The position numbers and the translations under genes are program-made. Below, one piece after another: positions 6,324-25,162 of a stretch of 64,000 bases of DNA. Origin of the DNA: a virus. The DNA lies in the IMG/VR virus record IMGVR_UViG_3300028384_001500, positions 62,001 through 126,000 of that record. One strand, given 5' to 3'. The notes beneath the pieces are model-generated. The model did not search any database and was not told where the DNA came from. It was given only the letters and a program-made list of their open reading frames with translations. The number at the start of each line of letters is the position of its first letter. The stretch's first letter is position 1.

Positions 6324-8051
6324 CTATCTTAATTTAGGGCGAAGTTTGTCAATTAATCCTTCGACACTTTCTGAAGGGATAAATCTTTTATTTAAAAAAT
6401 ACCCTAGTGAATTATATGCTGCCATGGCATGTTCTTTATCAACTTTTTTAAAAGCTTCAATGAGAACAAGAAACATGGCATATTCGCCGGGTTTAGTTAC
6501 ACCGTCCATCCCATATGTTAAATTAGCCATAGATACAATTAACTCACTTAAAGCCTTACTGGCATTGCGCATGTACCTCATTACGACAGAAAGAAGCCTG
6601 TTATTATTCACAGCGTTAATAATTGCATTAGCTGGTTTGACTCCGCTATTAATTTTGTTTGCTGCTTCTTTTCCAGCTTTTTCAGACTCCCGACCAAATA
6701 TGTAGTATAATTCATTGCTTAAAACTCTTATGGTTTCTTTTTCGCCTAGTTTTTTAAGTACTGGCAGTACTCTATTTGCAAAAGAAAGAATGTCAACGCT
6801 GTCTTTCCTAAGTTTAACTATAGACAACAATTCAGCAATTATTGTTGCGGTAATATTAAAACTGCCTGTGGATTGGTAAAGGCCTTTTGTTTTTTTAACA
6901 AACTGTGGAGAAATTCTTAATTCTAACAATGCGCCTCCAAGGGTTTCAACATCGGCACTTTTGTACTTTGCACGAATTATTTCCCGTGCCTTTTCTTTTG
7001 CCCTATTGCCTATTATTGTCTCTTGTCCAAACCTATCACCTAGTATTGCATCATCAAATACGTCATCAAACTCAATTACATTTATAATGCCTTGCAAAGT
7101 AGAAGCAGTTGACAGTGCTTTTTCAAAAAACAAAATTTCTAGTGCATATTTTTTATACTGGTCTTCTGTTGTGCCGTCAACGACGCTAAAAGATGACAAC
7201 ACTTTTTGCTTAAGATAGTGATATCCTTCCTCTTGAATGACGTCAGCGTTTATTTTTATATATTTTTTGAGTCCTTGATATCTTTTTAAGAAAACTTCAA
7301 CGTTTGACAGTTCTAGCTCTGTTAGCCCGATACCCTTTGAACGGTCTCTTAGATTGTTGCTTATAAACTTACCTGGCCGGGCAGTTGTTGTCGCGGATCT
7401 TTTTAATACATTTTTAATGCTAGACTTATCTATTCTTTTCCAGTTTACATTTTTTATTGTACCTGCGGCTTGAATTTCATCAACTGTTGTATGTGCAACA
7501 GGAAAGGTGTTTGCATCATCAAATATTAGACAAACGTACCCGTCATTACTACCTCTAAATAACATACCAACGATATCATTCATTAAAAAAACTGATAATA
7601 CTTTTGCCCACCCACCGCTTAACACGTCTTTTTCTGGTAACGACGCGTCAAGAAGATGCGCGTTTTTAGAATTTTCAATATCACTAATTTGAGTTCGCAC
7701 GTTTTGCATTTTTTCTAACTGTTGTCTTACTGTCAAAACTTTTCCATGAACTAGTTTGCATGTGTCTTCGTTCAATGCAAGAAAATTGTTTAAATTTGTT
7801 TTAAACTTGTAAACGTAAGGACCATAACTACCTGTACCTGTATTGGAAACAAACAGATCTTTGTCATCATACACAGTGTAAAGACCCATACCGTAAAGTC
7901 CACCGGCACCTCCACCAGGTTGAAAACCGCCAGAATTGTAGCTTTTAATCAGCTCAACTGGAGGTGTTCTAGACCCATGGTAAACTATTGCTGTTTTGCC
8001 GTAAATCGCTTCATTTATTAATTTTCTTAATTGTTTTCTTTCAAGTATCAT
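6324..8051 (-). CDS. Leader-bearing putative ADP-ribosyltransferase (Alt-like internal protein candidate)
   Basis: 575 residues from the ATG at 8051, preferred over an upstream ATG at 8078 because AAGGA precedes it and the shared leader then starts at residue 1 (MILERKQLRKLINEA, with I-N-E at 12-14 followed by Ala). Directly after the leader comes VYHGSRTPP (His25) and a Gly-rich turn leading to GMGLYTVY (54-61). This is the H...G-x-G-x-Y pattern of PARP-like/H-Y-E ADP-ribosyltransferases. The glutamate of the third motif cannot be placed with certainty. The C-terminal 350 residues are helical and unassigned. T4 Alt is a head-packaged ADP-ribosyltransferase with a cleaved leader, a close parallel by layout; homology to Alt is not claimed. 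Confidence 0.6.
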   Translation of the reverse strand: MILERKQLRKLINEAIYGKTAIVYHGSRTPPVELIKSYNSGGFQPGGGAGGLYGMGLYTVYDDKDLFVSNTGTGSYGPYVYKFKTNLNNFLALNEDTCKLVHGKVLTVRQQLEKMQNVRTQISDIENSKNAHLLDASLPEKDVLSGGWAKVLSVFLMNDIVGMLFRGSNDGYVCLIFDDANTFPVAHTTVDEIQAAGTIKNVNWKRIDKSSIKNVLKRSATTTARPGKFISNNLRDRSKGIGLTELELSNVEVFLKRYQGLKKYIKINADVIQEEGYHYLKQKVLSSFSVVDGTTEDQYKKYALEILFFEKALSTASTLQGIINVIEFDDVFDDAILGDRFGQETIIGNRAKEKAREIIRAKYKSADVETLGGALLELRISPQFVKKTKGLYQSTGSFNITATIIAELLSIVKLRKDSVDILSFANRVLPVLKKLGEKETIRVLSNELYYIFGRESEKAGKEAANKINSGVKPANAIINAVNNNRLLSVVMRYMRNASKALSELIVSMANLTYGMDGVTKPGEYAMFLVLIEAFKKVDKEHAMAAYNSLGYFLNKRFIPSESVEGLIDKLRPKLR

Positions 8052-8107
8052 AAGATAATCAATCCTTTTTTTATACATATCTTACACAACTTAAACTTTA
8101 ACCTAAT

Positions 8108-8662
8108 TTACAACACTACTTCGATATCACTAGCGTCAATGCCTGTACTATATATTACTTTATCTCTACCTTCTAGTCCTTTAATCTCCATAAGAAACCA
8201 GAAACCTGCAACATTACCTTCCAGTGCTTTAACAATATCAGCAACTGCAACTGCCGTTCCACCTGTCGCTAGAACATCATCAACAATAAGAATGTTTTCA
8301 TCAGTCCTGATATCATCTTTGTGGATCTCAACTCTATCTTTGCCGTATTCTAGGCCATAATCTTGATGCACAACATCGCGAGGCAACTTTCCTGCTTTCC
8401 TAGCAAGTACTAGGGGTAAACCGGTTTCGTACGCAAGAAGTGATCCAAAGAGAAAACCTCGTGACTCTATTGCAACAATTTTGTCAAAGGCGCGGCCGCT
8501 GTTTTTAATAAAACGTGCTTGTGCCTTAATTAGATTTTTAAGCTCACTTTGATCTTGCAATAAGGGTGTAATATCTTTAAATGTAATTCCTGGCTTTGGA
8601 AAATCAGGTACATCAATAATTAGTTTTTGAATTCTTTTTAACATAAAATCGTATTCGCTCAT
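8108..8662 (-). CDS. apt: Adenine phosphoribosyltransferase
   Basis: 184 residues. N-terminal PDFPKPGITFKDITPLL is characteristic of APRT; the PRPP-binding motif ILIVDDVLATGGT is at about 124-136, with VAIESRGFLFG upstream. The enzyme makes AMP from adenine and PRPP. It could salvage adenine released from host nucleic acid or by ribosyl-transfer enzymes such as the deoxyribosyltransferase at 25.2 kb. It overlaps the next gene upstream by 4 nt (ATGA). Length and motifs match typical bacterial APRT. Confidence 0.93.
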   Translation of the reverse strand: MSEYDFMLKRIQKLIIDVPDFPKPGITFKDITPLLQDQSELKNLIKAQARFIKNSGRAFDKIVAIESRGFLFGSLLAYETGLPLVLARKAGKLPRDVVHQDYGLEYGKDRVEIHKDDIRTDENILIVDDVLATGGTAVAVADIVKALEGNVAGFWFLMEIKGLEGRDKVIYSTGIDASDIEVVL

Positions 8663-8892
8663 TTTTTCTTTTTCCTTCCTCGCTTTTTAGGTTGAGGTTT
8701 TACCTTTTTCTTTTCTGGTATTTTTATATGATTTTTATGGATTTCAAGGTGAAGACAAAAGTCTTTTCCCTCTGTTGTTGATTTAAAAACAATCCATCCT
8801 TCTGCATCACAAGAGATAACTTCGTGTTTTTTAAATCGCTTGCCAATTTTAACAGAAACTTTGTCACCTTTTTCTGGATAAACTAGTTTCAT
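8659..8892 (-). CDS. Small basic protein with AT-hook-like tail
   Basis: 77 residues. A beta-rich body (KGDKVSVKIGKRFKKHEVISC) is followed by a Lys/Pro-rich tail ending KKRGRKKKK, which contains the RGR core of an AT-hook. It overlaps its neighbours on both sides by 4 nt, so it is translationally coupled between dUTPase and APRT. A small nucleic-acid-binding protein is likely from composition, but no family is recognised. Confidence 0.55.
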   Translation of the reverse strand: MKLVYPEKGDKVSVKIGKRFKKHEVISCDAEGWIVFKSTTEGKDFCLHLEIHKNHIKIPEKKKVKPQPKKRGRKKKK

Positions 8893-9308
8893 TGCCCGGT
8901 GCTTCCGTATCCACCTGTACCACGTTCAGTTGGTGTTAACTCGTCTACCTCAACAAAGTCAATCCTAGGATAAGGCATAATAATTAACTGACCTATTCGA
9001 TCTCCAATTTGATATTCATTACGATTTGCAGACAAAGAAAACTTCATCATAATTTCGCCTCTGTATCCACTGTCAATTACTCCTACACAATTTGTTAGTG
9101 ACTGGCCAGTTTTGTACACAGATGATCGTGGAAAGAGTAAACCAACGTGCCATGGAGGTATTTCAACTGCTAATCCGGTGTGATATGTAAAACAACCATA
9201 TTGGTCTGTTGTTACATCTATTGCTGTTAGGTCCATTCCAGCGTCACCTCGTTTTGCGTATTTTGGAATAACTGCATCTTTGTGTAGTTTTTTAATGCTT
9301 ACTTTCAA
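8889..9308 (-). CDS. dut: dUTPase (trimeric), TTG start
   Basis: 139 residues, hydrolysing dUTP to dUMP. The conserved motifs are present in order: AGMDLTA, PRSSVYK, GVIDSGYRGEI, GDRIGQLII and the C-terminal GTGGYGSTG arm. The initiation codon is TTG at 9308-9306, with AGAGGAT upstream and no suitable in-frame ATG near the expected N-terminus (KVSIKKLHKDA). It begins one base after the stop of the 38-residue membrane peptide, suggesting translational coupling. Confidence 0.93.
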   Translation of the reverse strand: MKVSIKKLHKDAVIPKYAKRGDAGMDLTAIDVTTDQYGCFTYHTGLAVEIPPWHVGLLFPRSSVYKTGQSLTNCVGVIDSGYRGEIMMKFSLSANRNEYQIGDRIGQLIIMPYPRIDFVEVDELTPTERGTGGYGSTGQ

Positions 9309-9309
9309 T

Positions 9310-9426
9310 TTAATCCTCTAACTTGTATTTTTTAAAAACGTATTTGAACATGTATACCCAGATTAAAATACTAGGTACAGTTGTAAAAGGTACAATAATC
9401 TGGTACCACTCTTGCGATGCTGACAT
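9310..9426 (-). CDS. 38-residue single-TM membrane peptide
   Basis: Short gene read from the sequence: ATG at 9426-9424, stop TAA at 9312-9310, GGAG 5 nt before the start. The product begins MSASQEWYQIIVPFTT, has one transmembrane helix over residues ~10-30 (IIVPFTTVPSILIWVYM), and ends with a basic-acidic tail (KKYKLED). It fills the gap between the dUTPase and the gene at 9438-9680 exactly. Function unknown; the ribosome-binding site, spacing and clean TM profile support a real gene. Confidence 0.6.
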   Translation of the reverse strand: MSASQEWYQIIVPFTTVPSILIWVYMFKYVFKKYKLED

Positions 9427-9437
9427 TATAACTCCTG

Positions 9438-9680
9438 TTATCTTTTGAGATCTGATTGAATAAATCTATCTACTAATACCCATTTGTTTTCTGACAAAAA
9501 ATCTCTTCTGTATAAATCTCCTTTTTCATCATATGCGTAGCCAAGAAAATTTGAGAAATTTCTTTTTTTATAATCTATCCATCTTTGCAAATAAGGTTTA
9601 TTTACCATGTTCTCTTCTTTTTTAGACAAATAGTCTTTTAAAGAATTGTCTGTAATAGGTTTAAGTTGATCTGAATTCAT
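9438..9680 (-). CDS. Small hypothetical protein
   Basis: 80 residues, charged and aromatic-rich (RWIDYKKRNFSNFLGYAYDEKG), beginning MNSDQLKPITDN. No membrane segment, signal or known motif. It lies 8 nt downstream of the kinase gene and 11 nt upstream of the membrane peptide, in the same operon. Confidence 0.5.
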   Translation of the reverse strand: MNSDQLKPITDNSLKDYLSKKEENMVNKPYLQRWIDYKKRNFSNFLGYAYDEKGDLYRRDFLSENKWVLVDRFIQSDLKR

Positions 9681-9688
9681 TGTTACTC

Positions 9689-10600
9689 CTAAATAATATG
9701 TCCTGAATTAATTTTAATTTCTATTTTGCAATAATCACCTTGACGGTCACATTTAAAATATCGAAAAACTTCTGCTGTAAGATGTTTAATAAAGTTAAGA
9801 TCATATGACAGTGTTTCTTTCACATTTGATGATCGTAAAAAGAACTTTGCGTCCATGTGGCCATCACGAACTAAAAAATGAGCAAGGCTAATACAAGAAT
9901 TATCAGTGTAAATATATCTTCTCGAGTCCAACCCTTCTGCTCTTTCGTACTCATTTTCACCTCGCATTTCTGCTTTAATTTTATTAAATACTGCATTTTC
10001 AATTTTTCGGTAGTATTCTTTTTCTTTGTGGTAGTTTAACATTGTTTTGTTGACGTCGGAAAAATCGCCTGTATCATAATGAACAAAATTAAGGCCTAGT
10101 ACTTCGTTGCCGCTTTTAAGGGCTGCCATTTGTGTTGCTGCGTTACTGAGGTTGGCCATAGAATCATTTTCCAGTTTATAATACTGGTTTACTAAGTCTT
10201 TGACTAACTGTTTATCCACAACCTTACCAATAACTGTCACATTAGGATAATTGCCAAATTCATCAGCAGCCTCTTGAAAAAGATCGTATATTTTTCTAAG
10301 ACTAGTGATGTTTTGAATTGGATCACCTCGTTTTTGAAAACGATCAACAATTACCTTCCATTCAGGCAAGCAGATAATTGTTTGGTTGTTTAAGTTGTGT
10401 AATTCTCGTTTTAATTGTTCAACGTGATTAAAAGTGTCGCGACCGTAATAACGAGCGTGAATAAGCATAGAAAGTGCAGATCGATCTTGAATATTCCACT
10501 TATATCCTGTTTCTTTATGAATCATTTCATAAAGAGTTGTTTTTCCACTACAATCAGGGCCTTCAATAAAAATATAATCAATTGGTGTGCTGTGTGACAT
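9689..10600 (-). CDS. Nucleotide kinase fused to thymidylate-synthase-like C-terminal half
   Basis: 303 residues. The N-terminal part has a P-loop GPDCSGKT (14-21) and the layout of thymidylate/deoxynucleotide kinases. From ~165 the sequence aligns without gaps to the core of ThyA-type synthases: Cys236 sits at the catalytic Cys, VRDGHMD and RSSNV follow (Arg256-Ser257), then SYDLNF, and the end GDYCKIEIKINSGHI mirrors the ThyA Gly-Asp-Phe...His-Leu-Tyr segment. Two changes stand out: the ThyA RSxD Asp is Asn259, and the Asn that selects dUMP (Asn177 in E. coli) is Asp267. Asp at that site is known in dCMP hydroxymethylase. The N-terminal third of a full synthase is missing, so activity is uncertain. 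Confidence 0.65.
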   Translation of the reverse strand: MSHSTPIDYIFIEGPDCSGKTTLYEMIHKETGYKWNIQDRSALSMLIHARYYGRDTFNHVEQLKRELHNLNNQTIICLPEWKVIVDRFQKRGDPIQNITSLRKIYDLFQEAADEFGNYPNVTVIGKVVDKQLVKDLVNQYYKLENDSMANLSNAATQMAALKSGNEVLGLNFVHYDTGDFSDVNKTMLNYHKEKEYYRKIENAVFNKIKAEMRGENEYERAEGLDSRRYIYTDNSCISLAHFLVRDGHMDAKFFLRSSNVKETLSYDLNFIKHLTAEVFRYFKCDRQGDYCKIEIKINSGHII

Positions 10601-10644
10601 TTATTACCTCATTTATATAGTATTATATTTTAAAGGCAATAAAT
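10599..10644 (-). promoter_or_regulatory. SD-occluding hairpin before the kinase/TS-like gene
   Basis: On the minus strand ATTTATTGCCT (10644-10634) can pair with AGGTAATAAAT (10609-10599), 11 pairs with one G-U. This buries the GAGG Shine-Dalgarno (10610-10607) and part of the ATG at 10600. The loop contains a TATAAT box. A transcript arriving from upstream would fold, while one started from the local promoter would lack the 5' arm. Confidence 0.5.
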
Positions 10645-10650
10645 TTACAT
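10622..10650 (-). promoter_or_regulatory. Candidate promoter, AAATGTAA box plus TATAAT
   Basis: Minus-strand ATGTAA (10650-10645, within TTAAATGTAAA) is separated by exactly 17 nt from TATAAT (10627-10622). It would start transcription a short distance upstream of the ATG at 10600. The upstream box is not a sigma-70 TTGACA; it recurs before several other genes here. Confidence 0.45.
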
Positions 10651-10654
10651 TTAA

Positions 10655-11590
10655 TTAAGCAGGAGGAGTACCTCTTAACCAGAAATATAGATCTTTTATA
10701 AAATCTTTAATGTTAGAACTTCCGCCCGGGCCTTTTTTAAGTACTTCTTTTTTAACGAGACGATAGCTACCGTCGCTTTTTTTAACAAGTTGTTCAATAG
10801 TATGCCTTGAACCGTCTTTTCTAATTACATACCTTATCGATCCTTTTCTACCTGCTACATCTTTTAATACATCCCATTCCATCACCGGATCTAAGCCGTC
10901 GTAAGTTAGATCAAATTTACTAGCTATGTCAGGGCTTAGATCAGCCAGATGATCATCAGCAACTCTTAAAAGTTCATCAACAGCTGATTCAGTAGGAGAG
11001 ATAAATGGGTCAAAGACACCTGCAGCTCCGGCAGCAGCAGTTCCGGCTAACATGTTCTTAAGAAGGTCGCGACGGCTTAAATTCATTGACAGATTGGTCA
11101 CGTCAATTGTATTTCCATCGTCTTCGTCAGGCGTCATTTCTATGCTAGGATAGTTGGTTGGTCCTGGCAAAGCATGCATATTTTTTCCTTTACTCGGGCT
11201 TTGAGATTTAGATGAAGCTGGTACTATTTCTTTTTTTGCTGTGGGCTGAAACTGATCTTCCCAGGATCTTTTTTTGTTTGGATCTGCAGATGCGTATTCA
11301 GAACTTCTTCTGTTTATCTTGACCTTTAGCGGTTCGATTGGAGGTACAGACATACCGGCTTCCTTTGCAGCAATTCTTTTTTGTGTTTCTTCTTTGACTT
11401 GCTGAAGGAATATTTGATACATTCTATCGTAATCGTCTAGATCTTTTGCTTGTGCTGCTAACAGTTCAAACTCTTCACCTAGCTCTAACTCTACTTGCAT
11501 TCTAATTAACTCTTTTTCTGATTTGGATAAGCGGGCTTCGTTCAGTATGTTTTTGATTATTTTTTTTAATTTATGCTTCGTTAGTTTCAT
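10655..11590 (-). CDS. Leader-bearing protein with internal Tat-like motif
   Basis: 311 residues. The leader MKLTKHKLKKIIKNILNEA has L-N-E at 16-18 followed by Ala19. Residues 20-75 are a charged helix; 76-165 are low-complexity Ser/Pro/Lys, probably disordered. At 172-178 the sequence reads SRRDLLK, followed by NMLAGTAAAGAAG. This is a twin-arginine signal (S/T-R-R-x-x-L-K plus hydrophobic Ala/Gly stretch) placed in the middle of the protein. The C-terminal 110 residues are mixed alpha/beta with no family recognised. No Shine-Dalgarno precedes the internal Met169, so separate initiation there is unlikely. A processed form could expose the motif, but this is speculation. Confidence 0.6.
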   Translation of the reverse strand: MKLTKHKLKKIIKNILNEARLSKSEKELIRMQVELELGEEFELLAAQAKDLDDYDRMYQIFLQQVKEETQKRIAAKEAGMSVPPIEPLKVKINRRSSEYASADPNKKRSWEDQFQPTAKKEIVPASSKSQSPSKGKNMHALPGPTNYPSIEMTPDEDDGNTIDVTNLSMNLSRRDLLKNMLAGTAAAGAAGVFDPFISPTESAVDELLRVADDHLADLSPDIASKFDLTYDGLDPVMEWDVLKDVAGRKGSIRYVIRKDGSRHTIEQLVKKSDGSYRLVKKEVLKKGPGGSSNIKDFIKDLYFWLRGTPPA

Positions 11591-11625
11591 TTTTCTATAT
11601 TTTGTTTATTCTTTAATCTTAGCGA

Positions 11626-14073
11626 TCAAATAAGAAAGTCATTATAAGCTTCTGGCCATGGGACGTTGTTTGCTAGCGAATAGCTTTGCCATCTGAGCTT
11701 CCCGTCAATCACATACTTTACAATTTCATAAAGAGACAAGGCCCAACCGTATGTTTCAGGGTTATTCATTTCAGGTTGATCTTCATATTCTTGTAAGTAA
11801 GCAATTATTTCTGCCATATAGTCGTGAATATTATTAATTGTCCTATATCCTCTTTCGTATAATTTTACTATTTTTGCATGCTCTATTCCCATTTCAGATG
11901 CCGGCATCATAGCTTCCATCCATTGATCTTGAAAAATTTCTTGTAAATCAACGACACTATTTCGATCAACAAATATAGAGATATTTTCAGCTAGCCTTTT
12001 TGTCTTTCCTGCTTGGGCTTTATATGATTGAAAGTTTGGTCCTTTAATTAACGGATCTTCTCGCAACTTAAATATGACTGATGCAGCATTAACTCTAGGT
12101 GTTGTTCTAAAGTCTAGCATACCGTTTCTATAATTTTGTGGGTTTAATAAGATTTCTCTGTGTATTGCTCTTTCGTACACTTTGATTGGATAAATTGGAT
12201 CAAGATGTATTTTGCTGCCAAAATAATAAAACGAATTAAGTTCAGCAGCAGAATCAAGATATTTTAAAAATGTACTAGGTAATTTTTCTTCTATCATTGC
12301 AAACGTTTTGTTATCAGCATACGTCGCAAATGTACTTATTAGCTTATCATGTTTTCCTTGTATTTCGCCAAATTCGTTAGACACGACATTTCCTTGACCT
12401 GGTAGAGTACGCATTTGATAGTTAAAACTGCCGTGGAATTCTCTTAATTTTAAATCTTCAGGGCAATTTGGATGTGTTGTTAAGACAAGTGTATGCCGTC
12501 TAGCATTATCGGCGTCTCTTTGACTGTTAAAAAGTTCATATAACGCTGTTATATGTTCAGGTGTTAAGCCGGGGTGTCGAATAATTCTTGTAAAATAGTA
12601 GTCTCGAGGTGGATTAGGATCGTTCCATTCATTACCAGAAATTACGTTATTTGTGACAATATCTTCAACCATTTCATTGAATAGCTCAGGCGTAGGTTCT
12701 CGTTTATAAATTTGAATCCCATAGTACTGGTTCATATCCAAAGTGTTTGTTGTGTCAATAAAGTTATGTAATATTCCCGAAGGTATTTTTCCGCCATTTT
12801 TTGCCTTTTCTGATCTATACACTTTTGTCATAAAATCAGGAGGTAAAGGTAGAATTGACTTAATTAACGCGTCAAAAGGAACATGTTCTATTGCGACTGC
12901 TGCTACTTCTGGCCGTGCTGAATTTCTAAAACTTATCGGGTGTCTGTAAACTGCCCGCTCAGGATCTTTGACCATTTCAATAAAAATGTCAACGTTCGAA
13001 GAATATTGACATATACCTCTAACTTGCTCTGCAAATAAATTTAAATCTTCCGGAGAAGTAGCAGCTGCTCTTAAGTCTCTATATTGATCAAGCGTTAATG
13101 ACTTATAATAAGCAATTATATCTACTGTCTTTCTACTAGGTTTTTTAACATCAGCCTCAATCAAATCATAAAGTCTTTGTCCTATGTGTCTAATAATTGT
13201 TTCTTTTGATGCTGGTTTGTTGTCACCGTTAACTGTCGCATGCCCATCACTGCGCAATTCAACGTGATCACCCTGTTTGACAAAACTTAGACAAAATTTT
13301 CGCTCTGGAGCGCGTGGGTTATAGTCGCCAACACGAGTTAGATAATACATATGCAAGTTCATTTTTTTGTGATAGTTAAGGAACATATTTCCACTTCCAT
13401 CGACTGTTGTGCACCATGTCATATTACCTAGCTGTGCTTTATCAATAGGTGAGTTAGGGTTAAGATAATTATAGTTTGGCCCCATACGCCCTAATGATAT
13501 TGATCCTTTATAGGTTTTAGGATAAGCAACAAAGTAAGGATTAGAGCTAGATGGCATAGCAATAACTTCAAACTCTGATGTTTGACCATTAACACCGTCA
13601 GCGATTACTTGGTTAAGTACATCAGTTCTTTTACCTACTCCTGATCCACTTTCTATATATTCCATTGCTTCATTGTATGTTAAAGTTGTGTTGTCAGGTT
13701 GTACTACATCGATCTTTGGTAGAAGATCAATAAACTGATTTGCAGTCCCTCTAACAGGACGTGGCGGTAATTCACCTCGTCGAGCATTATTAATAATCTT
13801 ATTTAAGATATCTTTACCACCTTGGGCTATATCTCTAAGACTATGTCCTTGACCACCGTCATTAAGTGTATTGAAAAGTATTTTTGCCATGATCGGATCG
13901 TTAAACGGAGGTTTCCAGTCATTTCCAAAAACATACATTTTAAAGTCTTGATCACTAATAATTCCCCTTTGGATAAATTGATTAAATGACCTTTTCTTTA
14001 TTTCAGTAAGAAGACTAGCCTCTTTTAGATAATTTTCAATTATCAAAGACAGTTGTTTGCGTGTTACTTTCAC
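11626..14073 (-). CDS. Large leader-bearing protein with WCT motif
   Basis: 815 residues. The leader MKVTRKQLSLIIENYLKEA has L-K-E at 16-18 and Ala19, the same register as three other tagged proteins. Near residue 220 there is a distinctive GNMTWCTTVDGSGNMF with a following Tyr-His. This Trp-Cys-Thr...Asn-x-Phe signature occurs, as far as I recall, in uncharacterised proteins of large phages. The C-terminal two-thirds is helical with repeated proline-initiated segments (for example HPGLTPEHITALYELF and HPNCPEDLKLREF), suggesting helical repeats. No enzyme motif is certain. Size, leader and location favour an internal virion protein. Confidence 0.6.
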   Translation of the reverse strand: MKVTRKQLSLIIENYLKEASLLTEIKKRSFNQFIQRGIISDQDFKMYVFGNDWKPPFNDPIMAKILFNTLNDGGQGHSLRDIAQGGKDILNKIINNARRGELPPRPVRGTANQFIDLLPKIDVVQPDNTTLTYNEAMEYIESGSGVGKRTDVLNQVIADGVNGQTSEFEVIAMPSSSNPYFVAYPKTYKGSISLGRMGPNYNYLNPNSPIDKAQLGNMTWCTTVDGSGNMFLNYHKKMNLHMYYLTRVGDYNPRAPERKFCLSFVKQGDHVELRSDGHATVNGDNKPASKETIIRHIGQRLYDLIEADVKKPSRKTVDIIAYYKSLTLDQYRDLRAAATSPEDLNLFAEQVRGICQYSSNVDIFIEMVKDPERAVYRHPISFRNSARPEVAAVAIEHVPFDALIKSILPLPPDFMTKVYRSEKAKNGGKIPSGILHNFIDTTNTLDMNQYYGIQIYKREPTPELFNEMVEDIVTNNVISGNEWNDPNPPRDYYFTRIIRHPGLTPEHITALYELFNSQRDADNARRHTLVLTTHPNCPEDLKLREFHGSFNYQMRTLPGQGNVVSNEFGEIQGKHDKLISTFATYADNKTFAMIEEKLPSTFLKYLDSAAELNSFYYFGSKIHLDPIYPIKVYERAIHREILLNPQNYRNGMLDFRTTPRVNAASVIFKLREDPLIKGPNFQSYKAQAGKTKRLAENISIFVDRNSVVDLQEIFQDQWMEAMMPASEMGIEHAKIVKLYERGYRTINNIHDYMAEIIAYLQEYEDQPEMNNPETYGWALSLYEIVKYVIDGKLRWQSYSLANNVPWPEAYNDFLI

Positions 14074-14100
14074 TTACTTCTCCAAATATATTATATATAT

Positions 14101-17100: not shown

Positions 17101-17619
17101 GTCAATACGAGGATATCTATAAAAGCCATCAGTATAAGCACGTTTAATTAGAGTAAATAAGTTACCTAAACCTTCACGGTTTTGCGCAGTAACTACCAGA
17201 TGATAACGTCGTTTCCATTCGTCTTTACCTAAATCAAAAGACTTAGTTTCTTCTTCGTTTTCAATGATATGACCACCTTCTTCCTCTTCTTTGATTGCCT
17301 TTTTCTTTGCAGCAGCTCGATCGATTTTAGCTTGTTCATAATCAGCTTTCCAGTCTTTAAGTGAAGGAACAAAATAAAACTCACAACCGTAAATCTGACG
17401 AAACTTACGACCAGACTTTTTAACTTTTTCAGCATGCTTATGAGCATGTGCCAATCCACTACCGTTTCCATGATCAGTTAATGCCCAAGCATCCATGCCG
17501 TTTTCTAGTACAAAGTCAATATGGTCAGAGGGGTACCCTAATCCATCAAAAACAGAAAAACCTGTGTGACCGTGAAAACCAACAAATCGATCGGGCGGGG
17601 TAAGTAATTTGATATCCAT
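14101..17619 (-). CDS. dnaE: Family C replicative DNA polymerase (Pol III alpha-like)
   Basis: 1172 residues, about the size of bacterial DnaE. PHP domain at the N-terminus (FHGHTGFSVFDG, ALTDHGNGSG). The polymerase palm shows ARGSGGGSLVNYLLG (~433), DPLKYDLLWERFL and the catalytic PDIDSD (~471), followed by RSIGRHAGGVII, GVFQFTAEGARRFC and YGFNKSHAVAYA. The second conserved segment is SDAGDRD instead of the usual IDF-x-x-x-R. This would be the main replicase, replacing the family B enzyme of T4-type phages. The start ATG at 17619 has AAGGAG at 17634-17629, inside a hairpin (separate entry). Confidence 0.93.
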   Translation of the reverse strand: MDIKLLTPPDRFVGFHGHTGFSVFDGLGYPSDHIDFVLENGMDAWALTDHGNGSGLAHAHKHAEKVKKSGRKFRQIYGCEFYFVPSLKDWKADYEQAKIDRAAAKKKAIKEEEEGGHIIENEEETKSFDLGKDEWKRRYHLVVTAQNREGLGNLFTLIKRAYTDGFYRYPRIDFDLLRQYGKGLNVSTACLGGIYSNRIMRGNALKISDEQIQQELSYLSERFVDAVGEDNFYLELQFNRLKQQHLVNHHLLRHADQTGLQLISTPDSHYYSPDKWEARELYKKLGWMGNDPSPLPEFEDLKCELYPKNATQMWDEFTRHYDEYKETYEGYEETIKRSIEITHDIAWQKCEDCWIDTSVKLPDFNNPNQTAFQQLAQKVKQALVKEGLHTKTEYVERAKHELEDIKFLGFENYFLVMNEVFHKAADHTLFGAARGSGGGSLVNYLLGITQVDPLKYDLLWERFLGRHRTSWPDIDSDAGDRDALINAARELYGDEAVIPVSNFNTLKLKSLVKDIAKFYGVDFAEVNKMTGPLQDEVMSQARDENTEKSVFVLKHEDCMTYSKGYRSFMEKYPKVKDHIEALFMQNRSIGRHAGGVIIGPADDLARGMPIIGVRGELQTPWTEGMNFRNLEDNGFIKFDFLGLTLLKDVENCIKRILTRETGKEPTFLEIRDWFDKHLNCRYVEQDDPEVWKHVYHQRRKVGVFQFTAEGARRFCEDAKPTTIIELAALTAIYRPGPLRANVHKKYVKDKMRADEIHYDHPIIKDILGPTFGHVTFQEQFMLLAQKLGGFTPAESDKLRKTLVKKSLDTMGKKGDEREAARIKFVTGAKEINGVPEHVSQELWERIEFFSVYGFNKSHAVAYAIGSYYAAWLHTYYETDWLGTILESENNNPNALTKAIAEIKEMGYRVELPDVNESGTYWQWSDKKKAFIPPLTSIKGVGKTAVVEIMQNRPYKSVADMLFNDEGKWRHSKLNKTGFASLCQVEAFNGLQEMWDGTINNHKQLYEIIIENYNTLKKSKYGMTLRQAKKKDADPILPILIDQTKDIEDWGRIDKLTMYQDLCSATRDDLAFPDDMMEKIQSAGVKSVLKMLPGEKCIAWCCIVDMIKKTTKNKKTFYRLKITDYENNTGWLRMWGEKPETMVPYSIWLTDASNDPNWGASTSSRKVRPLVTD

Positions 17620-17625
17620 ATAAGA

Positions 17626-17669
17626 AAACTCCTTGTAGTATTTTTGTTATAGTATACCACAAGGAGTTT
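17626..17669 (-). promoter_or_regulatory. SD-occluding hairpin before dnaE
   Basis: Minus-strand AAACTCCTTGT (17669-17659) pairs perfectly with ACAAGGAGTTT (17636-17626), 11 bp, extended by GTAT/ATAC after a mismatch. The second arm contains the AAGGAG Shine-Dalgarno, and its tail GTTTTCTT could also act as a terminator run. The loop carries the TATACT of the local promoter. It is either an attenuator or a translational switch. Confidence 0.6.
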
Positions 17670-17679
17670 AAGATTACAT
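17651..17679 (-). promoter_or_regulatory. Candidate dnaE promoter, AAATGTAA box plus TGGTATACT
   Basis: Minus-strand ATGTAA (17679-17674), 17 nt spacer, TATACT (17656-17651) preceded by TGG, an extended -10. The predicted start lies within the hairpin loop, so this transcript would not contain the hairpin's 5' arm. Confidence 0.5.
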
Positions 17680-17690
17680 TTTCACAAATA

Positions 17691-18098
17691 TTATTTATTT
17701 TCTTTGCAACTATCACACAAAGTATAAATCCAACCTCGATTACTATCTTGTTTTGCTGAAGGTTTGCTACATTCTGTGCAAATATGATATGACATAGCCT
17801 CAGCCATACTCACTAATCCATCGATGTAGTCATCACCACCGTATGTGTAGAAACAAAGTCCACCAAACTTTTCTTTAACTTGGACTGCTTCGCAAATAAG
17901 GTGTTCTTCTTCAGATTTGTTTCTGTTTACGTTTATGACCCTGTTTTGAATATTTTCACAAAGAGTATCTATTAGGTCATACCATCCATCGCCGCAAGAT
18001 ATCCCCCAGCACATTGCTGTCACTGTTTTGTCTAGATCTTTTTGGCGAAAAATGTTTGGATATTTTTCATAAAGTTGTTGTTGGAGTTCTGCTTTCAT
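17691..18098 (-). CDS. Zinc-ribbon-like hypothetical protein
   Basis: 135 residues. Landmarks: CGDGWYDLIDTLC near 35-47, KEKFGGLCFYTYGG near 86-99, and a C-terminal pair of Cys-x-x-Cys knuckles (CTECS and CDSCKEN) separated by a Trp-containing segment. The combination, including GWYDLI and KFGGL, is one I associate with uncharacterised phage and bacterial proteins. Zinc binding is inferred from the cysteines; the function is unknown. It follows the epimerase by 11 nt. Confidence 0.55.
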   Translation of the reverse strand: MKAELQQQLYEKYPNIFRQKDLDKTVTAMCWGISCGDGWYDLIDTLCENIQNRVINVNRNKSEEEHLICEAVQVKEKFGGLCFYTYGGDDYIDGLVSMAEAMSYHICTECSKPSAKQDSNRGWIYTLCDSCKENK

Positions 18099-18109
18099 GA
18101 TTTACCTCT

Positions 18110-19102
18110 TTAAAAGAATTCTGTCAAGTCAATGTTTTTTTCTTCTGCTTCTTCAAGAAAACGAAGCGGATTGTAACCTTCTGATTTTAATATGCTTTCA
18201 AACGACATTCGAATTCCTTCTTCTAGTGATATTCTAGGAGACCAGCCAGTATACTCTCTGACCTTTTTACCACTTAAGATATGATTTCCCATATACTCTG
18301 TCTGCGGGAGCCATTCAATTGTATCTGCAAAACTCTGGCCGCAAACACGATCCATAAGTGATACTATCTCACCGGTGACAAGCGGTGTTTCAGCAGCGAT
18401 ATTAAAGTCGTTATTCCAGCACTTTTCTTCTTTAATGCAAGAAAAGACACCGTCACAATAGTCATTGACATGTAGGTAGTCTTTGATTTTTGTTGGATCC
18501 AAAAACATTTGGACCTTTTTTACGCCGTTTAGCTTCGCGTAAATTGTTTTGGCAATGAGTGAATTCATATCACCGTCACCACCGTAAGCAAAGAGAGGTC
18601 GTACAATCATCCATTTATCACTATGTGACTTGACTACTTCTTCAGCTGCCAATTTTTGGCATCCATAAAATGTATGCGGGCCTCTATCTGAATTTTCTTT
18701 TATTTGGCTTTGCTGGTATTTTTCCGTTGCATAGATGACAGTTGTACCCATATAACAAACAGGAATACCACATTTCTTTGCCGCACGGCAGATGTTAAAT
18801 GTGCCTTGCACGTTTGTTAACGTCGACTCTTTTGAGTTAAGAGCAACAACATCAGTACCAACAACTGCTGCGTTGTGGATGACAACATCAATATCGTTAA
18901 CTTCAAAAAACTTTTGCCATGCTGTTTCGCTATTACGGTGAATACAAGGTTCACCTTTTTCTGTGGTATATTGTGACACATACGCTGCATCTTCATTTAA
19001 TTCATGTACACCTGATATAAATTGAAAACCGTGCATCTTTGCCCGTTTGGCAAGATTAGTGCCGATAAAGCCGCGTTCACCTGTTATAAAAACTTTTGAC
19101 AT
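18110..19102 (-). CDS. Extended SDR nucleotide-sugar epimerase/reductase
   Basis: 330 residues. NAD-binding GERGFIGTN at 8-16, a Thr-rich active-site strand (YMGTTVIYA), catalytic YGCQK, and a family-typical C-terminal region (KIKDYLHVNDYC, NIAAETPLV). It is distinct in sequence from the epimerase at 5242-6258, notably GTT instead of SSS at the active-site strand. The likely role is interconversion of an NDP-sugar for surface glycan change; the substrate is not defined. The Shine-Dalgarno GGAGG is 5 nt from the ATG and hidden in a hairpin. Confidence 0.8.
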   Translation of the reverse strand: MSKVFITGERGFIGTNLAKRAKMHGFQFISGVHELNEDAAYVSQYTTEKGEPCIHRNSETAWQKFFEVNDIDVVIHNAAVVGTDVVALNSKESTLTNVQGTFNICRAAKKCGIPVCYMGTTVIYATEKYQQSQIKENSDRGPHTFYGCQKLAAEEVVKSHSDKWMIVRPLFAYGGDGDMNSLIAKTIYAKLNGVKKVQMFLDPTKIKDYLHVNDYCDGVFSCIKEEKCWNNDFNIAAETPLVTGEIVSLMDRVCGQSFADTIEWLPQTEYMGNHILSGKKVREYTGWSPRISLEEGIRMSFESILKSEGYNPLRFLEEAEEKNIDLTEFF

Positions 19103-19189: not shown

Positions 19190-19486
19190 TTATCTTTTTC
19201 TAGCAATGTCATACTGATGAATTATATAATCAGCTAAAGCGTCAATGCCATGCTTGTCATAAATTTTTATTAATTTATCGCTATTATCATACAATCTCAT
19301 CATAGTTTTATAAGGCATCGTATATTCTTTTGCAAGTTGAAAAATAAAACCGGTTATTCCATCCTTTTCGTAAGCTTGATCTAGATCTGATACCACATCA
19401 TTGGCAACTTCTGTAGGTGATGATGCTAATTTTTGACTCTCAGCAATAATTAATCTTCTTAATTGTCTTCGTGTAATTCTTTTCAT
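19190..19486 (-). CDS. Small leader-bearing helical protein
   Basis: 98 residues. The leader MKRITRRQLRRLIIAES has I-A-E at 14-16 followed by Ser. The remaining ~80 residues are predicted helical (VANDVVSDLDQAYEKDG, FIFQLAKEY, IHQYDIARKR). AAGGAAATAATA precedes the ATG, and an AAATGTAA box lies just upstream at 19508-19500. It would make a small internal protein comparable in size to T4 IPI or IPII. No known domain. Confidence 0.55.
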   Translation of the reverse strand: MKRITRRQLRRLIIAESQKLASSPTEVANDVVSDLDQAYEKDGITGFIFQLAKEYTMPYKTMMRLYDNSDKLIKIYDKHGIDALADYIIHQYDIARKR

Positions 19487-19559: not shown

Positions 19560-20642
19560 TTAAACACCAGTTACAACTTCTGTATAATCCATCAACTCAG
19601 CTGTATTGGGTATTAATTCAGACGGTTGTGTTGTTGGGTTTGCAGCTATTACTCTTAAATTCCAAAAAGATGATATCAAGCCTTGCCCTTTCCCAGCAAT
19701 ATAAGCAAGGTGTGTTGCAAACGTACCACAATTATATTCATCCATGACTGGAAGCAACGTATATAGGTGACATTTGTCTTTTATGCTTAATCCGTAATCA
19801 ATTGCCGACTGGACATAATTTACGTCTGGGCAAATGTAAAGTTCTCCTGCATGCAATGACCCTAATTTTTTCTTTGCTAGCTGTCCTAACCTTCTAGCCT
19901 CTTTTTGCGTCACAGTTATCATTCCTGTGCCTGTAAATTTTTTAAATGACTTAACGGGGTCAAACATTAGATCTGGGTCATAGTCAACAATGTTTGCCTT
20001 TCCTAACGATGCATACCTAACTTTTCCACCGGTTGCTAAAGATTTCTTAATAAGCTTAGGCGTGTATTTCCCTTGGAGGACGTATTTGTCAATAACTCCT
20101 CTTAGTTTATCTAGACTTGATTTAGAACATTGTCCGCTATATCTACCAAAGTCAAAATAGTGCGCACTACCATCACCTGCTATCAATATAATACCACCGT
20201 GGCCTTGAGGGAATAAATACTCTAAAGCTTGTTTTTCCATGCCTGTCAATCCTAGTGATTTAGATAAGGGTTTAGACCCAGTCCAGTGGCACATTATGAC
20301 ACATCCGTTTGCTGAGCTTGATCCAGTAGTTGATTTAGGCTTTGGTTTTTCGCTCTTTTTACTCTCTTCTTCGTCATCTCCAAAACTAGGTAAGTACTTT
20401 CCTAATCCAAAATATTCAGTATCAGCTTCGTATTCTTTTCCAAATTGTCTATATGCTTTTGCTACATAAGCGTTGTTTTTGGTTTTTTCGCTCGGCGGAT
20501 CTAATTCTAATCGATGTGCATCTTCTGGATATGTATCGTTCAACCACTGTCTAAACGCATCTGCTTCTTTTTTGTTTGTCGGCGCTGCTTCGTTTAGATA
20601 ATTTTCAATTATAATTTTTAAATCGCTTTTTTTAATTTTCAT
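19560..20642 (-). CDS. Leader-bearing permuted papain-fold (NlpC/YiiX-like) protein
   Basis: 360 residues. Three parts. (1) Leader MKIKKSDLKIIIENYLNEA, L-N-E at 16-18 then Ala19. (2) Residues 24-75: a small domain with DAFRQWLND and YRQFGKEYE that is also present in the protein at 22355-23500. (3) From ~110: GHGGIILIAGDG then YFDFGRYSG (His near 147), and much later YNCGTFATHLAY (Cys near 304). His first and Cys last is the order of circularly permuted papain-like enzymes. A Ser/Lys-rich linker separates domains 2 and 3. Amidase, peptidase or acyltransferase activity is possible. The same His...Cys layout is in 23512-24552. Confidence 0.6.
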   Translation of the reverse strand: MKIKKSDLKIIIENYLNEAAPTNKKEADAFRQWLNDTYPEDAHRLELDPPSEKTKNNAYVAKAYRQFGKEYEADTEYFGLGKYLPSFGDDEEESKKSEKPKPKSTTGSSSANGCVIMCHWTGSKPLSKSLGLTGMEKQALEYLFPQGHGGIILIAGDGSAHYFDFGRYSGQCSKSSLDKLRGVIDKYVLQGKYTPKLIKKSLATGGKVRYASLGKANIVDYDPDLMFDPVKSFKKFTGTGMITVTQKEARRLGQLAKKKLGSLHAGELYICPDVNYVQSAIDYGLSIKDKCHLYTLLPVMDEYNCGTFATHLAYIAGKGQGLISSFWNLRVIAANPTTQPSELIPNTAELMDYTEVVTGV

Positions 20643-20663: not shown

Positions 20664-21290
20664 TTACCAGTTTTGGTATACTTTGTATATATTAATATCG
20701 TTACTTAAATATCCAGGCGAAACAACATTTTCTTCTAATTTTAAACTATTTAATTTATAACCATTTGGAATGATTTTACCAATTTTAACAGCTAAAGTTA
20801 AATCTTTAATTTTTTGGGGTTCTTCTAAATCTAAATTGGCATATTCCAGAGATTTATAAGCTAATTCTGAGCAATACTGTGCTGAACTAGACCAGCTAAG
20901 TCGGCTGTCGTAAGGTTTTCCTACTTGTGACTTTAAGTACCTTTTTACTTTTGCGTGATTTTTTTCTGTGATATCATCATGACGATAAACTACAAATCTT
21001 TTTCCTGTCCCTCTTCTATTAATATATTTTGTCAAGCTTATTTTTTTAACTGGGCCGTGCGCTTCATAAACGTAAAATTTGTTATTTTCTTTTACGACAA
21101 CCCCTACATGGTTGTAAGGACTAAAAGTCGCAGCTTGAATTGCGAGTGCCTGACTGCGACCTACTTCTGTTTGGAAAATTAAATCTCCAGTCTCGGCAAT
21201 ATTTTCATAGTCCTGTTGGTCATATGTAAGTCTTAAAGCTTCACAAGATACAAATAGTCCTGCGATCGCGGCGTATATATATTTTTTCAT
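20664..21290 (-). CDS. YiiX-like permuted papain-fold secreted enzyme, probable lipoprotein
   Basis: 208 residues. N-terminal signal MKKYIYAAIAGLFVSC; Cys16 after VS makes a plausible though non-ideal lipobox. The mature part follows the YiiX/YaeF family (MEROPS C92-type): TGDLIFQTEVGRSQALAIQ, then YNHVGVVV with His61, VYEAHG with Glu77, and AQYCSELAYKSLEYA with Cys140. Family members are permuted NlpC/P60-like hydrolases of the envelope. The export signal implies action in the periplasm during infection, perhaps on peptidoglycan peptides or lipids. It lies between two leader-bearing proteins of a related fold. Confidence 0.75.
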   Translation of the reverse strand: MKKYIYAAIAGLFVSCEALRLTYDQQDYENIAETGDLIFQTEVGRSQALAIQAATFSPYNHVGVVVKENNKFYVYEAHGPVKKISLTKYINRRGTGKRFVVYRHDDITEKNHAKVKRYLKSQVGKPYDSRLSWSSSAQYCSELAYKSLEYANLDLEEPQKIKDLTLAVKIGKIIPNGYKLNSLKLEENVVSPGYLSNDINIYKVYQNW

Positions 21291-21422
21291 AACATCCTTT
21301 GTTTTGTTAGGGTTTGTATATTAATATTATACCTAAGAAATAAAATAGTTGCACTTTTGTAAGTTTTTAATATATTCTTAGGTAAAATAATATTTTTCTT
21401 TACATTTAAGCTATTTTATTGA
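21291..21422 (-). promoter_or_regulatory. 132-nt intergenic region with inverted repeats and a TATAAT
   Basis: Very AT-rich and without an ORF. It holds an AAATGTAA box (21407-21399), an inverted repeat CCTAAGAA...TTCTTAGG about 40 nt apart, and a minus-strand GGTATAAT near 21326. The distance between the box and that -10 is too long for one promoter, so the arrangement differs from the other box sites. Confidence 0.3.
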
Positions 21423-22253: not shown

Positions 22254-22294
22254 TGTTTTCCTCTTTAAAAGGTTGCGTTGTTGATTATATTTCT

Positions 22295-22323
22295 ATTATA
22301 TACTTAAAAAAATTAGGTTACAT
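22295..22323 (-). promoter_or_regulatory. Candidate promoter, AAATGTAA box plus TATAAT
   Basis: Minus-strand ATGTAA (22323-22318, in AAAAATGTAACC), 17 nt spacer, TATAAT (22300-22295), 42 nt upstream of the ATG at 22253. Same architecture as the dnaE and kinase promoters. Confidence 0.5.
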
Positions 22324-22354
22324 TTTTACAAATTAAAAAAATTTAATTTTACTA

Positions 22355-23500
22355 TTACTCTTCATCATCACCAAAAAACGAGTCACTTGCTGCACTTGCG
22401 ATATTTTGAAGTTTATTTGCTCCGCCGAAAGTCAATGACTGTAGTGCATCAGTCGCGTACGCACCAATATCCCACAATGTACCTAGTACTTCATTAGGTG
22501 ATTCTTTATCCAGCTCAATGTCAATTGGAATCCCGGTGTAACCAAAGAGCCCCTCATAAAATCTACAAATATTTTCTATTGATGCTCTTGATAAAAAGTC
22601 TTCAGGTACCCACCCTTTTTTCTTACCACGATAGACTAATAAATTACCTTTTGCTGCAGCTGACAAAAACTTTTTAAAATTTTCTTCTTTTTGAAAAAAT
22701 TCAGGATCTTCAGCAGCTCTTTGCCCTTTTTTAATGTCGTCTTGTCCAAGTAAATTAACTGCGGGATTAAAATCATACTGATCTTTTATGAAGATCTTGT
22801 CATTTTTTACTACAACTGTCATATGTGTAAAACTATTGAAGATATTATTTAAAGGATCTTTTGATGTAAGACTGTCTTTAATAGAAGAATTACCTTTCAT
22901 ATTTTCAGCCATGTTATACGTTCCTGTACTAGGACCGCCAAATCTTTCAACATATGCTTTTGATGTAGCAACACGCTTATAGTCGGCATCAGAACCCCAC
23001 CCGCCTATTTTGTTTGTCTTTTTATGTTTAACAGCGTCAGCTGCTATAATTCTTAAACAATCTGCTAAAGAAGTTGTTAATGAATTTTCAGTTATTGGTG
23101 CAGTTCTCATTTCCACAAAGTCAAAAAACAATTGTGATATCCAATTTTCTTGCCCTAAAACAGCTAAAAAAGGCCGAAGAAGAACAACAGCAGACTTTGC
23201 AGTAATTGCTGTTGCAACTGAAAATAAACCCGCGCCTTTATTTTCTTTTTCTCTTGATTTTTCAAACTCTTTACCAAATTTTTCGTAAGCTACATAAAGA
23301 CCGTCCCAAGTAGAACTACCTGATGCTTTTGTGATGTCAATTTCAGGATCAGCAGCTTCTTCCTTTTTATTAGCTAGCATCCAAGCTCTAAACTCATCTG
23401 AAGTTTTTTTATCTTTGGCATATTTCCACGTTTTACCTTCACCGGCTTCAGTTAAATAATTTTCAATTAAAATTCTTAAATTTCTTTTTGATATTCTCAT
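22355..23500 (-). CDS. Leader-bearing protein with FRxW/FGKE domain
   Basis: 381 residues. The leader MRISKRNLRILIENYLTEA has L-T-E at 16-18 then Ala19. Next comes a domain (about 33-80) with DEFRAWMLA and YVAYEKFGKEFE, matching the same region of the 19560-20642 protein. Residues ~93-113 are hydrophobic (SVATAITAKSAVVLLRPFLAVL) and may touch membrane. The C-terminal half contains THMTVVVKNDKIFIKDQYDF and VYRGKKKGWVPEDFL, and the tail is acidic. No catalytic motif is recognised. It sits in the tagged-protein cluster, 11 nt after the gene at 23512-24552. Confidence 0.55.
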   Translation of the reverse strand: MRISKRNLRILIENYLTEAGEGKTWKYAKDKKTSDEFRAWMLANKKEEAADPEIDITKASGSSTWDGLYVAYEKFGKEFEKSREKENKGAGLFSVATAITAKSAVVLLRPFLAVLGQENWISQLFFDFVEMRTAPITENSLTTSLADCLRIIAADAVKHKKTNKIGGWGSDADYKRVATSKAYVERFGGPSTGTYNMAENMKGNSSIKDSLTSKDPLNNIFNSFTHMTVVVKNDKIFIKDQYDFNPAVNLLGQDDIKKGQRAAEDPEFFQKEENFKKFLSAAAKGNLLVYRGKKKGWVPEDFLSRASIENICRFYEGLFGYTGIPIDIELDKESPNEVLGTLWDIGAYATDALQSLTFGGANKLQNIASAASDSFFGDDEE

Positions 23501-23511
23501 AACATTCCTTT

Positions 23512-24552
23512 TTATTTTAAAGTTTCTTTTGCTAAGTTTACAGCGTGAGGTGGAAATTGAAAAAGTTTTTTGTCAATTGATCCTGGCATTTTTCCTTTTT
23601 TTGCAAGATGTAGTAGTTTGTATCCTAAACTAGAACAATTATCTGATCCATCACTTTTAGTAACTGTATCGTCCCCAGTGAAAGTATCAATCATACCCCT
23701 TAAAGAACTTGCCAAGTCTCCAGCAGATGATGCCGGAACTAATGAGTACTTATTGCATTTATAACTAGCTGTATGACCAATTACTTTATTGATAAATTTG
23801 CAGTCATTAATAATTGCATAATCTTCATAGTCTGATGTTCTACTAAGAATGTTTTCAACTTCGCCTTCTTTGAATAAATAGTGTGTACCATCTTTTGATT
23901 TTACCAAAGATGCTTCCGGCCCGGGTAAATCTTTTTTAACTAAAGATCCAACAGCATATACACCTACTGATCCACCAATTGCATTTAAAATATTTTCAAA
24001 AGCACTTTTATTTTTTTGTTGACATTCCGCATGCCCTCCATCCTCTTTAGAATAGACACCAAAATCTACGCTAAAAGGAATTCTTGTCCTAGGATGAATA
24101 TAAATCACCTTAATATGTCCTTCAGGTATTGCGTCTAATACTTTTTTCTTTGCTGACTCAGGAACCATACCAATAAACAAGTCTGATACAGGCTTGGAGG
24201 TTGTATTAATTATGATTGCAGGATACCCTACATCTTTTTCATATGCATACTTTCTACCTGTCTGCTTTTTTGATATCATTTTTTCAACTTCTGCATTGAT
24301 TTTTTGATGTACGTCTTTATAAGCAGACTTAATTTTTTCTAAACTTAAAGGCTTTTCTTTACTCACGTTTGAAACATCAGTACCTGAAATTTTTGCTTGC
24401 GCAGGCCAAGAAGTAAGAAATATACCCTTGCTATCTTTATACCCTTTAATATTAAAGTTTGAAAATTTTATAGAAAATTCTTTTTTTTCATTTTCGTTTT
24501 CAAACAAATATTGCTTAATTAAATTTTTTAAGTTATTTTCAGATATTAACAT
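23512..24552 (-). CDS. Leader-bearing permuted papain-fold candidate, divergent paralogue
   Basis: 346 residues. The leader MLISENNLKNLIKQYLFEN has L-F-E at 16-18 then Asn19. The core shows GHIKVIYIHPRT then FSVDFGVYSK (His near 144), and late in the protein DNCSSLGYKLLHLAKKG (Cys near 304). Spacing and surrounding residues (G-H, D-F-G-x-Y, N-C-x(6)-L-x-x-A-x-K-G) match the protein at 19560-20642, so the two are probably distant paralogues. An internal GGHAECQQ adds a further His/Cys pair. The enzymatic role is inferred from fold pattern only. Confidence 0.5.
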   Translation of the reverse strand: MLISENNLKNLIKQYLFENENEKKEFSIKFSNFNIKGYKDSKGIFLTSWPAQAKISGTDVSNVSKEKPLSLEKIKSAYKDVHQKINAEVEKMISKKQTGRKYAYEKDVGYPAIIINTTSKPVSDLFIGMVPESAKKKVLDAIPEGHIKVIYIHPRTRIPFSVDFGVYSKEDGGHAECQQKNKSAFENILNAIGGSVGVYAVGSLVKKDLPGPEASLVKSKDGTHYLFKEGEVENILSRTSDYEDYAIINDCKFINKVIGHTASYKCNKYSLVPASSAGDLASSLRGMIDTFTGDDTVTKSDGSDNCSSLGYKLLHLAKKGKMPGSIDKKLFQFPPHAVNLAKETLK

Positions 24553-24562
24553 TATCGCTTCC

Positions 24563-25162
24563 TTAAAAAGAAGACTTCATAGATGCATCACCAGATGACT
24601 TTGCTGATTTTGCAATTGAATCTGTTGACTTTCTTAAAGAGTCAGCAGATGAATCCATTGCAGCACTTAATATGTCACCAAAAGAAAACTTTTTCTGTTT
24701 TTCTTTATCCATTGTAAAAGTTTTACCCATTGTAGAAGCTTTTGGTCCCGCAACAACTCTAAATTTGTCACCACCAGCTTTCTGATAAAGATACGGATCT
24801 TGCTTTCTAGATCCTACTTCACCCATTTCTGTCATACCGCTTGACCAAAATTTATCTAACCCCTTCCAAATAAAGTAGTCTTTTGATTTTAAATCTTTTC
24901 CTGTTCTTTTTCCAATTGAATTCATTACATTCTTAACTTGATTATTAGTTCCAGGTGCAGCATCACCAACACCATATTGGTTCCCGCCAAAGTGAATTTT
25001 AAGTGCTTCTTTGTTTGATTTATCAGCAACAAAGTGTCCTGAATTTGGTAACATGTCGTCACCAAACATTTTCTTTGCCATTTGTTCAAAAGCGTTTTCG
25101 TTGATTGCGTAACTAATAGCTTCGTTAATAAGTCGTCTAAGCTGCATTCTAGAAAGTTTCAT
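24563..25162 (-). CDS. Leader-bearing small protein, Ser/Lys-rich tail
   Basis: 199 residues from the ATG at 25162; an upstream TTG at 25174 is rejected because it lies in the Shine-Dalgarno (GGAG-TATAAT-ATG). The leader MKLSRMQLRRLINEA has I-N-E at 12-14 then Ala15. A second N-E follows at YAINENAF. The middle is Gly-rich and basic (HFGGNQYGVGDAAPG, WKGLDKFW), and the C-terminus is a low-complexity Ser/Asp/Lys helix. No known domain. It is the first gene after a terminator, so this cluster begins a new transcript here. Confidence 0.55.
   Translation of the reverse strand: MKLSRMQLRRLINEAISYAINENAFEQMAKKMFGDDMLPNSGHFVADKSNKEALKIHFGGNQYGVGDAAPGTNNQVKNVMNSIGKRTGKDLKSKDYFIWKGLDKFWSSGMTEMGEVGSRKQDPYLYQKAGGDKFRVVAGPKASTMGKTFTMDKEKQKKFSFGDILSAAMDSSADSLRKSTDSIAKSAKSSGDASMKSSF

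Follow-up and report, generated by a model that had tools for sequence, protein, structure and literature searches.

Dozens of proteins of a jumbo phage begin with the same short leader. Very probably, to judge from sequence, this leader is a two-part capsid-targeting and maturation sequence that works like the capsid-targeting sequence (CTS) of phage T4, with a basic targeting half of its own. The window, the whole stretch of 64,000 nucleotides analyzed here, spans positions 62001-126000 of a virus record that is 236,652 bases long (G000; 236.7 kb). By its gene content, the source is a jumbo phage with a gp23-type capsid protein. The original prediction read the leader as a prohead-targeting and cleavage signal. 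This reading is supported, at the level of predicted genes and sites, by a prohead protease, by the cleavage rule of the capsid protein and scaffold, and by the untagged replication enzymes.

Leaders were scored using a 12-residue profile trained on 13 leaders, all from outside the window. Eight of the nine leaders predicted in the window scored 17-36 bits, and that of gene 23512 scored 8.1 bits; the top score among 1,317 internal methionines, which served as background, was 10.7 bits. Since the window scores of 17-36 bits exceed this background maximum, the leader is not due to chance. With a whole-genome profile, the 23512 leader scored 21.2 bits. All nine leaders are present, each with its (L/I)-x-E triplet at the residue given for it in the original prediction (Table 1). 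The leader of gene 6324 fits a start at an internal ATG, position 8051, and six homologous bodies in a related phage, G005, carry a leader at the same position.

Table 1. Leaders in the window. A slash marks the putative cleavage site.
Gene	Leader positions	Strand	Leader	Predicted cut after	Profile score (bits)	Remarks
6324-8051	8010..8051	(-)	MILERKQLRKLINE/A	E14	26	
10655-11590	11537..11590	(-)	MKLTKHKLKKIIKNILNE/A	E18	24.9	
11626-14073	14020..14073	(-)	MKVTRKQLSLIIENYLKE/A	E18	21.7	
19190-19486	19439..19486	(-)	MKRITRRQLRRLIIAE/S	E16	35.8	one residue inserted after Met
19560-20642	20589..20642	(-)	MKIKKSDLKIIIENYLNE/A	E18	17.1	
22355-23500	23447..23500	(-)	MRISKRNLRILIENYLTE/A	E18	21.6	
23512-24552	24499..24552	(-)	MLISENNLKNLIKQYLFE/N		8.1	lowest of nine
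24563-25162	25121..25162	(-)	MKLSRMQLRRLINE/A	E14	28.2	
47877-50381	50337..50381	(-)	MKKLKRLQIRKLLEE/S	E15	20.2	one residue inserted after Met
1835-2440	2414..2440	(-)	MNLTKFLFE/Q			tenth, degenerate leader; full leaders on orthologues in G012 and G006

Extending the profile search to the full genome revealed 44 tagged genes in G000 (15,935 residues summed). One further carrier is gene 31004, in which the leader lies at residue 59 of the longest frame, as indicated by homology and an internal GTG start. The tagged set thus comprises about 44-45 genes. Four T4 proteins have such a leader: IPI, IPII, IPIII and Alt. The set had been predicted to exceed that of T4, and it does so approximately ten-fold (~45 genes vs four). 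The tagged genes form islands at ~24-42, 57-62, 68-87, 135-147 and 227-236 kb of G000; the 68-87 kb island is the span in which the leader was originally noticed, and that at 135-147 kb adjoins the capsid genes.

The original description of the leaders as the same kind of peptide was correct in that the leader is shared, but understated the likeness, as the basic core, residues 1-12, is a fixed sequence: MK[IL][TS][RK]xxL[RK]x[LI]I. The mean net charge over residues 2-12 was +3.7 in leaders and +0.6 in other genes. The hydrophobic periodicity of the leaders was strong at 85 degrees per residue (0.607 vs 0.297 in shuffled sequences, sd 0.022), which corresponds to i/i+4 hydrophobic spacing. At 100 degrees, the ideal helix angle, the moment was weak (0.333 vs 0.297, sd 0.022). 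These values refine the basic amphipathic helix that had been proposed.

The (L/I)-x-E triplet follows the basic half in varying register, with the Glu mostly at residue 14-15, 18-19 or 21-22 and commonly followed by A, S, G, N or Q. We evaluated the motif by shuffling residues within each alignment column, to see whether it exceeds what composition alone would give. Within residues 10-32, [LI]xE occurred in 42 of the 44 G000 leaders as compared with 28.9 expected, and [LI]xE[AGS] in 23 as compared with 9.4. The control motifs [LI]xK[AGS], [LI]E[AGS] and [LI]x[DQNR][AGS] were not enriched in the same 44 leaders. Because part of the G000 leaders had been gathered using a pattern containing (L/I)-x-E, the analysis was repeated on a pooled set from eight phages, containing one gene per body family (118); for almost all of these genes, the 12-residue profile was the sole criterion of selection. 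A cut-off of 17 bits was used for this set, as false positives, such as a baseplate gene in G012, occur among scores of 12-16 bits. In the pooled families, [LI]xE[AGS] was enriched with z = 6.9, and [LI]xE beyond residue 14 was found in 69 families vs 34.2 expected (z = 8.8). Many leaders hold more than one possible cleavage site, and several have LKE/F or another large P1' residue. When P1' preferences of leaders and capsid protein were compared phage by phage, no close match was found.

The genome encodes the gp21-like protease that the original prediction calls for: a gp21-type (S77) prohead protease lies outside the window at G000:152966-153385 (PF03420, E = 2.7e-28), in gene 152873-153475, and the protease was present in all ten capsid-bearing relatives tested. 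In the relative G005 (88364-90076; IMGVR_UViG_3300011113_000805), an intein-like insert interrupts the protease precisely within LGE-C/CDHPDS; the G007 protease has a similarly split profile match. The capsid protein of G000 is of the gp23 type (PF07068, 6.7e-66). Its LRE61/A62 aligns with LTE65/A66 of T4 gp23, the known cut at which that protein loses 65 residues (PMC9026906), and L59 and E61 are invariant in 81 of 81 relatives. The scaffold, an LxE-rich ORF assigned by gene order alone, contains 11 LxE[AGS] sites as compared with 2.15 in shuffles, or approximately five-fold more, and none of 2000 shuffles reached 11. The (L/I)-x-E rule anticipated for the major capsid protein and scaffold holds for both, in the capsid protein at the site homologous to the T4 cut and in the scaffold along its length. 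The gene order resembles gp20-21-22-23; gp23 and the S77 protease were identified by profile match, and the portal, a 651-aa ORF, was assigned by gene order alone. In G025, two tandem gp23-type capsid genes (139350-142938) each encode LENQASQVLRE/A.

A gene located between the protease and the scaffold, G000:152321-152872, also bears the leader. The motif K-E-C-[LI]-[LIV]-E-I-[LI]-x-E-G is retained by the orthologues from six other phages, such that the leader and the conserved E-I-[LI]-x-E-G occur together in seven phages, G000 included. Based on gene position and conservation, the product is probably, by analogy to T4 gp67 and gp68, a prohead-core protein. Leader islands flank the capsid gene in G000, G001 and G008.

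These head genes bear on the possibility that the leader is a localization tag for another site, such as the inner membrane, cell pole, replication compartment or tail, with LxE a mere by-product of a charged helix. Membrane binding is possible for basic helices whose hydrophobic residues are regularly spaced, and some tagged bodies are hydrophobic or peptidoglycan-active. Nevertheless, we consider this explanation improbable: [LI]xE exceeds the column-permuted expectation in a shifting register whereas [LI]xK, xD, xQ and [LI]E do not, the putative prohead-core gene beside the protease bears the leader, and the capsid protein and scaffold follow the same rule. Less probable still is that the leader targets the prohead core but often stays on as a lasting core- or DNA-binding helix. 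The net charge of ~+3.7 would suit such a helix, as would the few leaders that have no clear site or a bulky residue after the Glu, but the occurrence of [LI]xE in 42 of 44 leaders is far above expectation. Finally, it is hardly credible that the leader represents a gene-start cassette acting at the DNA level, either a recombination seam or an element for translation, that was spread by shuffling and encodes a peptide without a role: identical codons at shared leader residues are slightly more frequent than codon usage predicts (0.51 vs 0.42) and the arrangement of tagged genes in tandem arrays points to spread as a cassette, but the best conserved residues are encoded by a wide variety of synonymous codons, as in the six leucine codons at residue 8, which indicates that selection acts on the peptide, and the amino-acid motif is retained across separate phages and 118 body families.

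As a capsid-targeting and maturation sequence, the leader would act in two steps. Residues 1-12 form a basic helix that most likely binds the prohead core; core binding is proposed by analogy, as no similarity to the T4 CTS was detectable in the targeting half. Tagged proteins would thereby be gathered into the core before shell closure. The predicted gp21 cleavage site, (L/I)-x-E, directly follows the basic helix at residue 14-15, 18-19 or 21-22, and the phage's gp21-type protease would cut the tagged proteins there as the shell matures. The cut proteins would, as in T4, stay in the head alongside the DNA and be delivered into the next host cell. By this analogy, we consider injection of the tagged proteins into the host likely.

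The bodies behind the leader had been described as unrelated. This holds for most of them, but 19560 and 22355 are similar over ~80 N-terminal residues (38%), and there are a few other small paralogue groups. The 19560-20642 body matched a TseH-like hydrolase (PF25218, 4.2e-6). Database matches of tagged bodies in relatives included lysozyme, LysM, NUDIX, a zeta-toxin-like kinase and SET, and some had weak PHROG matches, including polynucleotide kinase and endonuclease VII. Most tagged bodies had no database match. This range of bodies would suit injected proteins. Kinase, GNAT acetyltransferase, zincin and M15 peptidase assignments made by eye for other tagged bodies were rejected, as none had a significant Pfam match.

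The 6324 body had no Pfam match, and a YHG...GxGLYT motif was seen by eye. A single-sequence structure model was poor (pLDDT 37), and a model based on ten sequences (pLDDT 56) had no Foldseek match. Its possible identity as an Alt-like ADP-ribosyltransferase is a lead. The six G005 copies of this family (loci include 254095-255360, 255357-256475, 181405-182730 and 186168-187190) are joined to leucine-rich repeats and have short leaders of the form MTHLLRSLIRETLLLEE. A W-C-T...Y motif region, also seen by eye, is common to the large tagged proteins at window 11626-14073 and G000:26415-28709, 28709-31000, 31004-33667 and 144609-147044. BLAST links G000 proteins 26415, 28709, 31004 and 144609, and no Pfam family matched these large proteins.

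Leaders on replication enzymes had been named as evidence against head packaging. No leader is present on any of the nine window enzymes tested, all of replication, nucleotide or sugar type: DNA polymerase III alpha, a DnaB-like helicase, RecA, gp32, an exonuclease, ribonucleotide reductase, thymidine kinase, ThyX and an epimerase. Similarly, Pfam revealed no replication functions among the tagged G000 proteins. Late promoters would have marked the tagged genes as late, which would favor packaging, but searches before tagged genes using the T4-type TATAAATA and TTATAAT revealed no clear enrichment. A papain-like amidase of the C92 (YiiX-like) type at window 20664-21290 (PF05708, 1.3e-20) is located among the leader genes; it has a signal-peptide-like start and no leader. 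An Fe/Mn superoxide dismutase at window 2442-3119 (PF02777, 8e-17) has an N-terminal extension ending in LNE/A, and its orthologue in G012 keeps LAE/A at the equivalent place. Based on this extension, the dismutase may carry a divergent leader and be packaged in the head.

Packaging signals of this kind are known from other phages. In T4, propeptides of 10-19 residues take the internal proteins into the core and are removed by gp21; targeting depends on the N-terminal part of the CTS and processing on residues 8 and 10 (PMC9026906). The T-even internal proteins are diverse and have only the CTS in common (PMC3012670). The present leader resembles the T4 CTS in its N-terminal location, its length of 10-20 residues, its (L/I)-x-E site behind a targeting part, and its unrelated bodies. 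The two systems also share a gp21-type protease and a gp23-type capsid protein cut by the same rule at a homologous place, the cut being predicted in G000. They differ in that the basic core has no detectable similarity to MKTYQEFIAE of T4. Indeed, the leader profile gave -14 to -15 bits for IPI, IPII and IPIII (-15 for IPIII), and the leader is thus an analogue of the T4 CTS and not a sequence relative. They further differ in the size of the tagged set and in the long tandem arrays of the relatives. In phage P1, an N-terminal signal within 30 residues of DarB suffices to package a foreign protein (PMC9024508). This signal is likewise N-terminal, but the Dar proteins have no common consensus (PMC9024508), whereas one consensus occurs on dozens of proteins here. 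Finally, in the SPN3US/phiKZ group, also jumbo phages, the prohead protease removes N-terminal propeptides from packaged ejection proteins (PMC5694885). These propeptides are mostly >100 residues, unlike the short leader, the virion is of a different lineage, and no common leader is described in the passages considered.

Judged from contig sequences, the leader is widespread in uncultured gp23-type jumbo phages, and it did not turn up in any cultured phage that we examined. The profile gave 25 hits in 141 kb of G001, 37 in 135 kb of G012, 28 in 242 kb of G025 (18 of them clustered at 9-19 kb) and 13 in 41 kb of LR756508. In G025, near-unbroken tandem arrays of 18 and 7 small tagged genes with different bodies (9257-18619 and 229887-232520) resemble a hugely expanded T4 internal-protein locus. 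A degenerate DNA pattern of the leader core matched at least 118 stretches in viral contigs, as compared with one for the scrambled pattern, and the stretches examined contained 66 unrelated body families. The prohead protease was found on 8 of 20 leader contigs, and all eight of these carried gp23. Among leader contigs of at least 120 kb, seven of eight had the protease; the eighth, G012, is a fragment ending before the head module. G012 and G016, two of the 12 contigs without the protease, belong by homology to the same phage group and have no capsid gene. They are therefore not counter-examples, as G012 stops where the capsid module should begin. The capsid regions of Flavobacterium phage immuto, Microcystis phage Mel-JY01, RM378 and XacN1 lack the leader. 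In a phage collection, tblastn searches with three tagged proteins and with the bare 20-residue leader, which is too short to be informative, yielded no matches.

The packaging principle is already known; the novelty lies in a tag unlike that of T4, a tagged set ten times larger and the arrangement of tagged genes in tandem arrays. The literature searched, mostly without subscription papers and preprints, yielded no description of this leader. We think it likely that one universal head-loading tag serves a whole lineage of uncultured gp23-type jumbo phages for loading very large, fast-changing sets of injected proteins, with tens of genes per phage and arrays of up to ~18. Injected phage proteins are normally identified virion by virion, using mass spectrometry. 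If the present reading is true, the tag allows the set of proteins that a phage injects to be read directly from its genome, and a predictive tag would make metagenomes catalogues of candidate host-takeover and anti-defence proteins. The leader would also offer a second, independent capsid-loading tag with which to package chosen proteins in phage heads. Finally, the old question of what the T4 targeting sequence binds would become testable by comparison.
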